From NCBI GenBank assembly GCA_021806205.1, contig JAJZXX010000162.1:1-44915 (forward strand): 44,915 bases of DNA, written 5' to 3'. The notes beneath the pieces are model-generated. The model was given only the letters and a program-made list of their open reading frames with translations. It was not told where the DNA came from and ran no database searches. Shown here in pieces: positions 1-38,739 of the stretch. Position numbers and translations under genes: made by a program. How positions within the stretch are numbered: the first letter of the stretch is position 1; each line of letters begins with the position of its first letter. The stretch is from Bacillota bacterium (lineage in GTDB: Bacteria; Bacillota; Sulfobacillia; Sulfobacillales; Sulfobacillaceae).

Positions 1-495
1 GGGACATGTGCCCGCATATACGCGTCGAATTCTCGACGCGCTTCAGATCCCGGTCAACCATCGGTACGTTTGGGATCCCTCGGAATAGGGGCCAAAAATT
101 CTACATTTTTAAGCAAGTTGACCTGCGTAGGCTGAGACGCGACTCGCCGATTGAGCTACCAGGTGACGTTGCAGTTATTGGCGTAGACGCACGATCCTCC
201 ACGGGCGGGCTTGCGGGTGCCTGGACGTGTGTACGAGCTGACTATATAGCTTTGCTTCGATTAAGAAGCACCCTCACATGGTCCCTTATTTTCGGATGAG
301 TATGAGCCAGGGGAATTCTCGCCTCGTCGGAGCGTTGGTTGACCGCATCCGATGGGGCCCGATAGTAGATACCGGGCTGTCATGCCCCCGATGGGACGCT
401 ATCCCGTTCTTTCAGCGTGTCGGCCTGATCAGATGAAAATGTGCTGCATCGCCTAAGGTCGTACTGAGATGATCTTGTGATCGTCGGTTCTCCAG

Positions 496-528
496 GTCAA
501 GGATCATAGATAATCTATGATCCTTGAC
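496..528. promoter_or_regulatory. Perfect palindromic operator candidate (16-bp arms, 1-nt centre)
   Basis: GTCAAGGATCATAGAT-A-ATCTATGATCCTTGAC; right arm overlaps a putative -35. Confidence 0.75.
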
Positions 529-552
529 TGACATAGATAATGATGATATTGT
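524..552 (+). promoter_or_regulatory. Putative sigma-A promoter of the GntR regulator
   Basis: TTGACT (524-529), 17-nt spacer, TATTGT (547-552). Confidence 0.5.
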
Positions 553-600
553 ATTGGACGAATCATTAAACTAATTGGTCTATAACGAAAAGGGAGACGA

Positions 601-1320
601 GTGATAATGGTGCTCCATGCTCGATCATTGAGTCAGCAAGCCTATGACCATGTTCGTAGGAGTATCTTCAACCAAACGCTTCGGGCGGGAGAACGGGTGG
701 TGATTGATTCCATCGCCCAGGAGGTTGGCACGGGTATTGGTGTTGTGCGTGAGTCACTCTTCCGATTAATGACCGAAGGGCTTTTAGACTATCGCCCCAA
801 CAAGGGTTTTCGAGTGTCACCCCTTCTCGATAAGAATGCCATGACGGAACTTTACGAGGTGCGTTCTGTGTTGGAACCGTCGGCGGTAATGTGGGCAGCT
901 GGTCAGATGGCTGCCGATAGGCTCACTGGCTTGCGACAAACGATCGAAGAGATGTACGCGTGCTCGGAGCAGCCGGTGTACGAGGACTATATCGCATTTC
1001 AAGAGGCTGACAGCCGGTTTCATCGTCTGCTTTTCCACTATGCAGGAAATCAGACGATGGAGCGTTTGTACGGATCCCTGTACGTCCACCTGCATATGGC
1101 CAGATTCTACGAAGTGCTCAAGCGCGTGGACGTAATAGCCGGGTGTGAGGAACACGAGGAGATCGTTCGGGCTTTGGCTGGTGGCGATCCTGCGGCTGCT
1201 CGGGAGTCCATGGTCCATCATCTCGAAGCGTCACGACTTCGCTTTTTGCCCGTGTTCCAGTCAGATTGGTGCTCGGTTCAAGAGGGAGGTGGAGGTGATC
1301 GTGGTGCGGAGTCCGGATAG
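601..1320 (+). CDS. GntR/FadR-family transcriptional regulator
   Basis: N-terminal wHTH (QAYDHVRRSIFNQTLRAGERV...GIGVVRESLFRL) plus FCD-like C-terminal domain (LYEVRSVLEPSAV...FHRLLFHYAGN...HEEIVRALAGGD). Confidence 0.85.
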   Translation: MIMVLHARSLSQQAYDHVRRSIFNQTLRAGERVVIDSIAQEVGTGIGVVRESLFRLMTEGLLDYRPNKGFRVSPLLDKNAMTELYEVRSVLEPSAVMWAAGQMAADRLTGLRQTIEEMYACSEQPVYEDYIAFQEADSRFHRLLFHYAGNQTMERLYGSLYVHLHMARFYEVLKRVDVIAGCEEHEEIVRALAGGDPAAARESMVHHLEASRLRFLPVFQSDWCSVQEGGGGDRGAESG

Positions 1321-33952: not shown

Positions 33953-35929
33953 ATGCCTGCGTTTATTGTGCATTTGATTCATACGCTCTTTCCTAAGACG
34001 GTGCTATTCCCGGATATTTTGTTAATCGACCTGGGATTGGTCGTAGGGGGTATCGGGTTATTTATCTTCATGACCAAAACTCACCGTTGGGGTTGGTTGT
34101 GGCGTGAATGGTTGACCACCGTCGACCACAAGAGAATTGCGGTGTTGTACCTTATCGCCGCTATTGTGATGCTGTTCCGTGGAGGCATCGACGCCGAGAT
34201 GATTCGGGCGCAGCTCGCCTTGCCGGGTACACACTTCATGCCGGCCATTCAGTACGATGAGGTTTTCACCACACACGGCACGATCATGATTTTCTTTATG
34301 GGCATGCCCTTTATCTTTGCGCTGTTTAATGCCGTGGTGCCGCTGATGATTGGGGCACGGGATGTGGCGTTCCCCCGAATCAATGCGATGAGCTATTGGC
34401 TATTTGCCTGTGGTGCCATCCTCTTTAATATCTCGTTCATCATCGGGGGGTCGCCGGATGCCGGCTGGACCGCCTATCCTCCTTACACGGGGCTTGCGTT
34501 TAATCCCGGGCCTGGCGAGAATTATTACTTTCTCGCATTGATCATTGCCGGAATTGGCACCACGATGACGGGGATTAACTTTCTCGTCACCACGGTACGC
34601 ATGCGCGCGCCTGGCATGACCCTTATGCGGATGCCGCTTTTTATTTGGTCCGCGATGGTGACGTCAGCCCTGGTGCTGTTTGCCTTCCCGCCCCTGACGG
34701 TGGCGTTGGCAATGAGCTTGTTTGACCGGCTGTTCGGCTCCTCCTTCTTTACACTGGGCCACGGCGGCATGCCCATGATGTATGTCAACCTCTTCTGGCT
34801 CTTCGGTCACCCGGAGGTCTATATTCTGGTCATCCCGTTGTTTGGGGTTTTTTCCGAGGTGGTGGCCACCTTTTCCAAGAAGCAGTTATTTGGATACCCG
34901 ATTATGGTGGCTTCCATCCTGGCGATTATGTTCTTATCTTATGGAACCTGGGTGCACCACTTCTTTACCATGGGCGCTGGGCCTGGTGTGAACGTCTTCT
35001 TTGGACTGTCCACCATGTTGATTGCCATTCCTACCGGCGTCAAAATCTTCAACTGGATATTCACCATGTGGGGCGGCCGCATTCAATTCACGGTAGCCAT
35101 GTTGTATCAGTTGGCTTTCATCCCAACATTCGTGATTGGGGGGGCCACGGGTGTCATGTTGGCCGCGGTGCCGGCGGACTATCAGTTTCACAATAGCTAC
35201 TTCGTCATTGCGCACTTTCACAACGTCATCATCGGCGGTACGCTATTCGGCTTGCTATCTGGACTGTACTATTGGTGGCCTAAGATGTTTGGCTCCAAGC
35301 TGAACGAGAAACAAGGCCGGGTTGCTTTTTGGCTCTTTTTCATCGGGTTCTGGGTCACCTTTAGTCCGCAATATCTGCTGGGATTAAAGGGCATGACGCG
35401 GCGCTTGTACACGTATCCGGCTGGCTTGGGATGGCACGAGCTTAACGTCATCTCTACGGTGGGTGCTTTGATCATGGGTGCGGGCTTCGTTGCCCTGGTG
35501 TTCAATATTGTGTGGACGCTGGTGTATGGTGAGCGGGATCTGACGGGGGATCCTTGGGATGGACGCACCTTGGAATGGTCCTTACCGTCACCCGTGCCCG
35601 AATATAATTTCGCGCGGGTACCCGTTGTCCATGCCCGGGATGCGTGGTGGGATATGAAGCAAAAGGGACAATCGCTAGCCCAATTGAGTCCCGAGGACGT
35701 TCACGACATTGAAATGCCGCGCAATACGCCGGTTCCGTTTCTGTTGGGCGTCGCATTTTTTGTGGTAGGATTTGCGCTCACCTTCAAGTGGTGGCCCATC
35801 GCGGGGATTGGATTGGCCGGAGTCTTCGCCATCATTATTTTCTCGGGCTTTGACTACGAGGATCACCATCACCTCAAAGCCGAGGTTGTACGTAAAACCG
35901 AGGCGTCGCTAGGGAGGTTGCAAGGATGA
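33953..35929 (+). CDS. qoxB: Quinol oxidase subunit I (heme-copper oxidase)
   Basis: TVDHKRIAVLYLI, THGTIMIFF, LFWLFGHPEVYILVIPLFGVFSEV, HHFFTMG, HFHNVIIGGT. Confidence 0.95.
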   Translation: MPAFIVHLIHTLFPKTVLFPDILLIDLGLVVGGIGLFIFMTKTHRWGWLWREWLTTVDHKRIAVLYLIAAIVMLFRGGIDAEMIRAQLALPGTHFMPAIQYDEVFTTHGTIMIFFMGMPFIFALFNAVVPLMIGARDVAFPRINAMSYWLFACGAILFNISFIIGGSPDAGWTAYPPYTGLAFNPGPGENYYFLALIIAGIGTTMTGINFLVTTVRMRAPGMTLMRMPLFIWSAMVTSALVLFAFPPLTVALAMSLFDRLFGSSFFTLGHGGMPMMYVNLFWLFGHPEVYILVIPLFGVFSEVVATFSKKQLFGYPIMVASILAIMFLSYGTWVHHFFTMGAGPGVNVFFGLSTMLIAIPTGVKIFNWIFTMWGGRIQFTVAMLYQLAFIPTFVIGGATGVMLAAVPADYQFHNSYFVIAHFHNVIIGGTLFGLLSGLYYWWPKMFGSKLNEKQGRVAFWLFFIGFWVTFSPQYLLGLKGMTRRLYTYPAGLGWHELNVISTVGALIMGAGFVALVFNIVWTLVYGERDLTGDPWDGRTLEWSLPSPVPEYNFARVPVVHARDAWWDMKQKGQSLAQLSPEDVHDIEMPRNTPVPFLLGVAFFVVGFALTFKWWPIAGIGLAGVFAIIIFSGFDYEDHHHLKAEVVRKTEASLGRLQG

Positions 35930-36549
35930 GTAGTGTACCGTTAGCCGAAGAGCGCGATCAGAAACTACCGGTTGAATTTGCGGATGAAAAAGAAAGCATA
36001 AATATTACGGGTTTTTGGACGTTCCTGGTCACTGACGTGCTGATTTTTGCCAGTCTTTTTTCGACGTACGCGGTGATGCATAAGGCGGCCGCTCTTGGTC
36101 CTACGTCGGTGCAGCTTTTTAAAATGGGCCCGGTGATGTTGGAGACGCTCCTACTCTTGACCTCAAGCTTCACGATTGGCCTCGGGGTTTACGCGATGCG
36201 CCGGGGCCAGGTGCGGGCTCTCATGCTCTGGATGGTGCTGACCATGCTTCTTGGAGCCGGATTCGTATCGTCCGAGATCAATGACTTTATCAGTTTCGCG
36301 CATATCGGCGCGACATGGCATACCAGCGCCTTTTTGTCCGCCTTTGACATTTTGGTGGGAACCCACGGGGCACATGTCACGTTCGGCATATTTTGGGCGT
36401 TGACATTGCTATTCCAACTGAAAAAGCGGGGAATCACGGCGCGGACCGCTCGTAAGGTGTACACATTTTCATTGTACTGGCACTTCTTAGACATCGTCTG
36501 GATTTTCATCTTTACCTTTGTCTATTTGAATGGGAAAATTGTCCCCTAA
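35926..36549 (+). CDS. qoxC: Quinol oxidase subunit III
   Basis: GFWTFLVTDVLIFASLFSTYAV, GTHGAHVTFGIFWAL, SLYWHFLDIVWIFIFTFVYL. Confidence 0.93.
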   Translation: MSSVPLAEERDQKLPVEFADEKESINITGFWTFLVTDVLIFASLFSTYAVMHKAAALGPTSVQLFKMGPVMLETLLLLTSSFTIGLGVYAMRRGQVRALMLWMVLTMLLGAGFVSSEINDFISFAHIGATWHTSAFLSAFDILVGTHGAHVTFGIFWALTLLFQLKKRGITARTARKVYTFSLYWHFLDIVWIFIFTFVYLNGKIVP

Positions 36550-36566
36550 GGAGGCGGCGGTCCGCG

Positions 36567-36947
36567 ATGGCTCACAGTGAAACCGAACTGACCATTTCTG
36601 AGGCTTACGAGCGTGATAATGACCGGGCACTGAAGTTTTTAAAGCCTCGGTTTCATGAAGAAAAATTCCCCATGACGCAGATCTTGGGGTATATTGGCTC
36701 GCTGATTCTTACCTTCGCGGCATACTTTTTGGTGATAAATCGGGTGCTGCCTTCGATCGCCCTTCTAGCCGTTATCTTGACGTTGGCCGTGATGCAAGGT
36801 GCCCTGCAGTTAGGGGTGTTTATGCACGTCCGAGAAGGACGAGGGTTGGCGTGGCAACTGATCCCGCTGTATCTCGTGTTCCTCATTGCCTTGGGAATGG
36901 TGGGGATGTCGGTATGGATTATGCTATTTAAGTCCGGGGTATCTTGA
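36567..36947 (+). CDS. qoxD: Quinol oxidase subunit IV
   Basis: Position after qoxC; 3-TM, QLGVFMHVREG. Confidence 0.88.
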   Translation: MAHSETELTISEAYERDNDRALKFLKPRFHEEKFPMTQILGYIGSLILTFAAYFLVINRVLPSIALLAVILTLAVMQGALQLGVFMHVREGRGLAWQLIPLYLVFLIALGMVGMSVWIMLFKSGVS

Positions 36948-37228: not shown

Positions 37229-37555
37229 CTACCCTTTGGTCGGGGACGTGGTGATCATGTAGCGGCGATTGTCGTGCTCTATCGCGTAGTCTTGAAACCA
37301 ATCGTCCACACGGGATAACGTTTGTTCGGTTCCGACGAAAAAAGTGCTGCCATCATGAGACATGAGGCTAAAATGAGCGACCACTCCTTCAAACAGGTCG
37401 TGTTTGATAATCCAGTCCACGGCGAAGTGAGAATCGACTTCGAGACGTCCCCTTTGAAAGATGTCGCTAACCCGGGTGTCGGGTTCGTGGATAAATCGGT
37501 CTAACGACTCCAGTTGTTCTGCCGTGAGCGTGACGGTGCCTGTCCAATTGGCCAT
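37229..37555 (-). CDS. Hypothetical protein (108 aa)
   Basis: ORF with RBS AAAGGGGGA upstream of ATG 37555; follows the Grx frame by 15 bp. Confidence 0.55.
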   Translation of the reverse strand: MANWTGTVTLTAEQLESLDRFIHEPDTRVSDIFQRGRLEVDSHFAVDWIIKHDLFEGVVAHFSLMSHDGSTFFVGTEQTLSRVDDWFQDYAIEHDNRRYMITTSPTKG

Positions 37556-37570: not shown

Positions 37571-38263
37571 TTAATAGAGTTGCAACAGCAATTTTAGTCG
37601 ATGGCGATCAAAACCCACTAACACATCCCCATTGAATACCGTCACGGGTATACCTCGTTCAGTACCTCTAAGGTGTCTCATGGTCTGAACATGCTGGGGA
37701 TCCGTTAAGCTATGGTCAACATACCAAAATCCTCGATCGGTCAGGAAACTCTTGACCCCGTTGCACACGCTTCAGGTCGGTGCCGTATAAAGATCAATCG
37801 CGGGGATGGCGAGCCGTTGGCCCATCGCGACGGTCAGAGAGTGTTCTTCGATCGGGACGACCATGCGATACAACACAAAATCCGCTACGGTGCTAGGCAC
37901 CGATAGCCAGTCGCGTAGTCGATCAGTATCGCCTAAAGGGCTGTCCAAGTCCACGACCTGGATTGCATCGGGGAAAGCTCTGCGGTCGTTTACAACAACC
38001 GGGGCCCCTGCTTTAAAGTGGACATCGCCGGACAGGCGAAGGCGATAGGAAAACGTTAAGCGGCCCTGGTCATAGTCTAGGCGTAACTTTTGGAACGTCT
38101 CGTCATTCTTGGCTACAAGCACCAAGCCTTGGTCGTTCGGTGCTACAAGGTGAATCACGCCGGGGGCGTGGCTGGTTTCCATGTCAGCTAGCCAGCGATT
38201 AGCCTGAAGCAAGGCGTTGACTAACGTTCCCTCGCCAGTAGAAAGGTTGGGATGGACAGCCAT
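37571..38263 (-). other. RluA-like fragment / glutaredoxin fusion frame with an in-frame UGA (codon 164) at the first Cys of CxxC: candidate selenoprotein or pseudogene
   Basis: ...GQRLAIPAIDLYTAPT-[TGA]-SVCNGVKSFLTDRGFWYVDHSLTDPQHVQTMRHLRGTERGIPVTVFNGDVLVGFDRHRLKLLLQLY. Confidence 0.6.
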
Positions 38264-38739
38264 TCCCCGGGGTTTCTCGGCGACAACTACAGTAGGTCCC
38301 TCATACCAGATGGTAAGAGGAATGGGTGAGATAGGGAGAAGCGGTGTTTTGTCCGTGGTAAAACCCCTTTCATATTCGAGCGTCCCGATGCTTTACATTG
38401 TCGCGCGCTTGCCCTTATTGCGCAACTACGGACGAGAAATTCGTGATTAGAGAGGTGCCGTTGGCGGGTTACCCACCGTACCGAAAATTCCTTAGACGTC
38501 ATCCCCGACTGTCCTCGGGGGAAATACTTCAAGACATCATTGGATGGATAAGACTACGTTACCCGTGGTACACGAGATGGTGTGCAGCCGAATGCGCCTC
38601 GCCCAAGCCGAACTGTTATCGCTGCGCAGCTCCACGGTATGGCATCAGGGTCGGTGACGTAAAGGCCTAGAATGGCGCCACCGATGCTCATATTAGGCAC
38701 CTGGCGAGATCGCGCGCGCGTCGCACAGGGATTAGCCTC

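Follow-up and report, generated by a model that had tools for sequence, protein, structure and literature searches.

A predicted selenoprotein family of Sulfobacillaceae joining an RluA-like domain to a glutaredoxin

Glutaredoxins with a UxxC motif, in which selenocysteine (Sec) takes the first position of CxxC, are already known and are listed as plain glutaredoxin families (PMC13188914, PMC1794560, PMC1088965). The gene described here, which lies in a 44,915-nucleotide stretch of DNA from a bacterium of the family Sulfobacillaceae (the window), resembles the selenoglutaredoxin of Alkaliphilus/Clostridium oremlandii in four respects, namely, the glutaredoxin fold, Sec as the first residue of CxxC, the existence of Cys homologs in sister species and a bacterial SECIS element (bSECIS) after the UGA. 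Here, however, an RluA-like domain precedes the selenoglutaredoxin, which forms the C-terminal portion of the fusion. With the RluA/RluD rRNA pseudouridine synthases the fusion family shares the fold and, over the first half of the catalytic domain, the sequence; it differs from them in the replacement of the catalytic Asp in all 26 copies, in altered motifs following it, and in the selenoglutaredoxin to which it is joined.

Two further groups of glutaredoxin-like selenoproteins invite comparison. The UXX-star and HUGP/GUXX-star families (NF041212, NF041211, NF045501) include another fusion, NF045501, but the N-terminal domain is a different one and our fusion scores 27-41 bits against cut-offs of 66-325. 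None of the NCBIfam models reached its cut-off on the fusion protein, the best results being 42.6 against 88.55 bits and 40.8 against 66. The YruB-type selenoglutaredoxin of the same genomes has an in-frame UGA at the same position of CxxC; unlike the fusion, it is about 85-90 residues long, stands alone and passes TIGR02196 (88.8 against 88.55 bits). The chemistry and the recoding are, in sum, known, and what appears to be new is the fusion architecture and its lineage-specific family. The features of the locus are collected in Table 1.

Table 1. Features of the fusion gene and its surroundings, in window coordinates.
Feature	Position	Strand	Basis
Whole gene, RluA-like/selenoglutaredoxin fusion, 261 residues, Sec UGA	37571..38356	-	N-terminus and length conserved in 26 relatives
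Probable ACG start codon	38354..38356	-	no codon but ATG, GTG, TTG or ACG at this column, 26 copies
Shine-Dalgarno-like GAAAGGGG, 7 nt before ACG	38364..38371	-	sequence; equivalents in relatives
RluA/RluD-like pseudouridine-synthase domain without catalytic Asp (HLVAPND vs RluD HRLDKDT)	37814..38335	-	Pfam PseudoU_synth_2, RluD profile, Foldseek, motif table
Glutaredoxin domain, UxxC motif	37574..37804	-	Pfam PF00462; Foldseek cGrx1 TM 0.82 by target length
In-frame UGA, predicted selenocysteine codon, residue 195	37772..37774	-	TGA 20/26, TGC 6/26
Resolving cysteine codon TGC, Cys198	37763..37765	-	invariant, 26 copies
bSECIS hairpin GGUCA-A-GA / GUU / UC-C-UGACC	37739..37757	-	covariation across 20 UGA copies
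TAA stop of fusion gene	37573-37571	-	
Downstream 108-aa gene, no Pfam family	37229..37555	-	immediate 3' neighbour of fusion gene, 9 genomes
Terminal-oxidase genes (subunits I, III, IV-like), converging on the pair	33953..36947	+	syntenic in 8/9 genomes of clade

Reading frame, start codon and the codon at the UGA column

The minus-strand frame from 38263 to 37571 contains exactly one internal TGA (37774-37772), in the context ...AIDLYTAPT-U-SVCNGVKSFLTDRGF..., so that the first-pass annotation had both the coordinates and the motif of this interrupted frame right. Its placement of the UGA at the nucleophilic Cys of a glutaredoxin CxxC also held: with the UGA read as Cys, the window protein matches Pfam Glutaredoxin (PF00462) at 24.6 bits, and also at 26.7, against a gathering cut-off of 22.9. 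The boundaries that it gave, 38263 to 37571, describe a real frame but not the whole gene, which extends further upstream, over residues that all relatives conserve, and begins about 31 codons 5' of ATG 38263. Comparison with these relatives gives the conserved N-terminus as [start]-DKTPLLPISPIPLTIWYEGPTVVVAEKPRG-MAVHP, and a start at ATG 38263 would remove the invariant WYEG and KP residues. Both this N-terminus and the RluA-like fusion partner were absent from the earlier description.

Between the upstream TAA and ATG 38263 the window contains no in-frame ATG, GTG or TTG. The column just before the conserved D/E-K is never ACA, ACC or ACT among the 26 copies, while ACG makes up 32% of Thr codons in the fusion genes. 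ACG occupies this column in 10 of the 26, in more than one clade, and most of these have a clear purine-rich Shine-Dalgarno-like stretch upstream. Taken together, the comparison makes ACG 38356-38354 most likely the start codon of the window gene; in some copies a nearby CTG, ATC or GTG could also be used. Because of the internal UGA and the apparent ACG start, automatic gene finders are likely to split the fusion gene or to miss it.

Searched with a profile, 101 related genomes yielded 26 full-length copies from 23 of them, with 46-62% protein identity to the window copy. The codon at the UGA column is TGA in 20 copies and TGC in six, and nothing else, and the UGA in the window is therefore not a chance event. 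Aligning relatives had been proposed as a check, with a UGA restricted to this genome as the outcome that would count against a selenoprotein; the alignment returned only UGA or Cys, with UGA in 20 copies. After the UGA, the UGA copies differ at 0.25 of second and 0.62 of third codon positions, similar to the values before it, a pattern indicating that this region evolves as protein.

These data bear on the alternative offered in the first-pass annotation, namely, that the gene is decaying and has suffered a TGC/TGT to TGA nonsense mutation. Decay does occur in this genome: a second paralog (L049; G000:C203, about 330-940, minus strand) is a pseudogene with a TAG, an internal deletion and a C-terminal frameshift, which has nevertheless kept the UGA. 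The window copy, unlike this paralog, is otherwise intact. Moreover, a UGA common to 20 copies whose protein identity falls as low as about 46-60%, protein-level constraint after the UGA and the covarying hairpin described below all speak against a nonsense mutation, to which we give next to no credence.

A second alternative would divide the gene into two proteins, an RluA-like one ending at the UGA and a small one starting just after it, for which GTG 37768 offers a codon immediately 3' of the UGA. This GTG had been named as the next possible start; the codon is there, but it is not conserved as a start, being GTC, GTA or ATT in 8 of the 20 UGA copies, and we rejected a separate open reading frame beginning at it. 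The downstream piece would also be without beta-strand 1 and the nucleophile, and the Cys copies are one continuous frame, which makes two proteins extremely improbable.

Under the preferred reading of a single protein with Sec or Cys at residue 195, each of the two major clades of the tree includes Cys copies, from which it follows that Sec and Cys have probably been interchanged at least twice. In one genome (G003) the fusion is present as two paralogs, one with Sec and one with Cys (L024, L046). Several copies (L016, L019, L037, L048) use TGA both as Sec codon and as terminator. The fusion protein of G006 matches that of Sulfobacillus harzensis over the aligned motif and length (L010, L016). 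L010, the copy of the cultured strain S. harzensis DSM 109850, carries the UGA. The family is a clean natural experiment, in which sister species differ in having Sec or Cys at the UGA column and the hairpin vanishes together with Sec.

The hairpin after the UGA and the selenocysteine machinery

The GGUCA/UGACC stem that had been noticed 3' of the UGA exists. Its apical loop, however, begins about 21-22 nt after the UGA rather than 19, since beyond an A-C mismatch the stem is extended inwards, and in the window it is GUU, or AGUUU with the last A-U pair open. When compared with the bSECIS consensus (PMC1088965), the element has what a bacterial SECIS calls for, namely, a hairpin just 3' of the UGA with a small apical loop containing a G, as had been suggested. 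The mRNA sequence that follows the UGA is CGAAAGAGUUUCUUUCG in most UGA copies, with a stem of 7-8 pairs and the loop GUU (or AGUUU). The window and G001 share the stem GUCAAGAGUUUCYUGAC, with a one-base shift and the outer pairs changed on both sides, and in G003, G017 and G026 a C-G pair stands in place of the innermost A-U pair.

On its own, the window hairpin is not unusually stable (folding energy z = -0.33, with one A-C mismatch); single-window folding energy is uninformative here, and the decisive evidence comes only from comparison across relatives. First, in the structural register of the UGA copies pairing is seen in 95.2% of cells, and both sides have changed in 5 of 8 pairs, figures that setting the register of two sequences by hand favours somewhat. 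None of 500 shuffles reached the observed paired-cell percentage or covariation score, and slid controls collapse. Second, the same columns in the six Cys copies are 65% paired, within the shuffled range. Third, synonymous sites of codons +6 to +11 after the UGA are nearly frozen in the UGA copies (ACG 18/18, GAG 15/15, TCG 17/17), where the neighbouring codons vary freely; in the Cys copies codons +6 to +11 are not frozen.

A near-identical hairpin, GCGAAGGAGUUUCUUUCGC, is present in a distant glutaredoxin-like frame with an in-frame UGA (L014; G042:C12), and this likeness suggests a SelB recognition motif shared with the fusion family.

The window's genome is a 3.77-Mb draft in 254 contigs, 87% complete and of the same genus as G006. 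A search for selA, selB, selC and selD, whose absence would have spoken against recoding, found all four over the curated cut-offs: tRNA-Sec at 72.2 bits, SelA at 555, SelB at 357 and SelD at 358, the selD gene itself carrying one in-frame TGA. Two genomes of the same family (G010 and G019) gave no over-cut-off match to tRNA-Sec, SelA, SelB or SelD; the fusion gene is absent from both and their glutaredoxins carry Cys only. Among draft genomes with UGA copies, selA was not found in G023, nor tRNA-Sec in G003, G024 and G026, which is most simply explained by gaps and strict filters.

The complete Sec machinery and the SECIS element also weigh against a UGA that is reassigned genome-wide, or that is leaky, with a near-cognate tRNA inserting Cys or Trp. 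Reassignment further conflicts with the oxidase subunit I gene in the window, which has TGA 35927-35929 as its stop, in overlap with the next start, and with the several relatives of the fusion gene that terminate in TGA. Either form of this explanation has nothing specific in its favour and a very slight probability. We conclude, from comparative sequence data, that the fusion gene is very probably a real selenoprotein gene whose UGA is read as selenocysteine. SelB carrying Sec-tRNA-Sec would bind the hairpin just 3' of UGA 37774-37772, and selenocysteine would be inserted at residue 195 to give the protein of 261 residues; such SelB-dependent insertion is the most likely outcome.

The two domains of the fusion protein

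An N-terminal segment of about 180 residues with the RluA/RluD-type pseudouridine-synthase fold is followed by the selenoglutaredoxin, and Pfam PseudoU_synth_2 and Glutaredoxin both match in every one of the 26 copies. The AlphaFold2 model of the fusion has a mean pLDDT of 93.9 and a pTM of 0.90. For the C-terminal domain, a profile search of solved structures returned glutaredoxins or NrdH-redoxins at residues 186-260, and Foldseek returned cGrx1 (TM 0.82 by target length), which we take to be the selenium-type glutaredoxin of A. oremlandii, and also NrdH. Pfam score and fold therefore agree on a glutaredoxin (PF00462). By analogy with the known family, the Sec195-x-x-Cys198 pair would run thiol-disulfide exchange, with the selenolate attacking the substrate and Cys198 resolving.

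Other glutaredoxin-like genes with an in-frame UGA occur in these genomes. A stand-alone YruB-type gene with UGA at the same motif position (L050; G000:C143:3534-3788) is widespread across the family, and some genomes have it in a Cys form. A third glutaredoxin-like type has the motif HAPG-UGA-VSC (L084; G004:C94:45198-45428) and Cys counterparts L079, L080 and L085.

For the N-terminal domain, the profile search of solved structures gave RluD at residues 7-105 (E 2.5e-11), and Foldseek matched RluD/RluA to the greater part of the chain (E about 1e-9, about 220 aligned columns). The RluD motif HRLDKDT-G aligns with, for example, HRLMAQDRG in relatives and HLVAPNDQG in the window. The column of the catalytic Asp in HRLD holds A, H, M, E or R in all 26 copies, the aligned motif of L021 being HTLAMED. 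The domain thus has the fold of the RluA-family catalytic domain without the catalytic Asp, and since this residue is replaced in every copy it is, by the motif, a pseudoenzyme that has probably lost pseudouridine synthesis.

It could still be argued that the N-terminal domain is an active pseudouridine synthase, making the fusion a bifunctional, redox-regulated RNA-modifying enzyme. The whole-fold match to RluD/RluA is in keeping with this, as is a new invariant Asp at residue 75, three residues past the lost one. However, the replacement of the HRLD Asp in 26 of 26 copies, and a sequence similarity limited to the first half of the catalytic domain, make retained activity quite improbable. 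If the domain is indeed a pseudoenzyme, it may instead act as a binding or docking module carrying the selenol to a particular partner, a conjecture to which we give somewhat less than an even chance. A fuller version, in which a dead pseudouridine synthase would dock on RNA or the ribosome and target the selenol centre there, with synthesis doubly limited by the conserved ACG start and by UGA recoding, appears rather unlikely as a whole. Nevertheless, the pairing of a pseudoenzyme of RNA modification with a selenol centre raises a testable question, namely, whether redox chemistry is directed at RNA or the ribosome.

Distribution and genomic context

Among 399 genomes sampled from the phylum, a search found the fusion only in the window's family; a wider search of relatives added a single copy (G041), from elsewhere in the order to which this family belongs. 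A literature search, in which subscription papers and preprints were sparsely covered, returned no relevant publication on a selenoprotein combining a pseudouridine synthase (RluA) with a glutaredoxin, and no study of the selenoproteins of Sulfobacillus or related bacteria. The RluA-like/selenoglutaredoxin fusion is thus apparently an undescribed selenoprotein architecture.

The 108-aa protein encoded downstream has no Pfam match and so provides no functional clue; its gene is restricted to one clade of the fusion gene. Selenium-dependent MsrA is known for A. oremlandii. As a partner here it finds no support, since the sole MsrA found is without an in-frame stop. Bacillithiol was likewise set aside as reductant, bshC not being found in the 87%-complete draft genome. 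In a second clade, the upstream neighbour of the fusion gene encodes a pyridine nucleotide-disulfide oxidoreductase, a plausible putative partner of the fusion protein.
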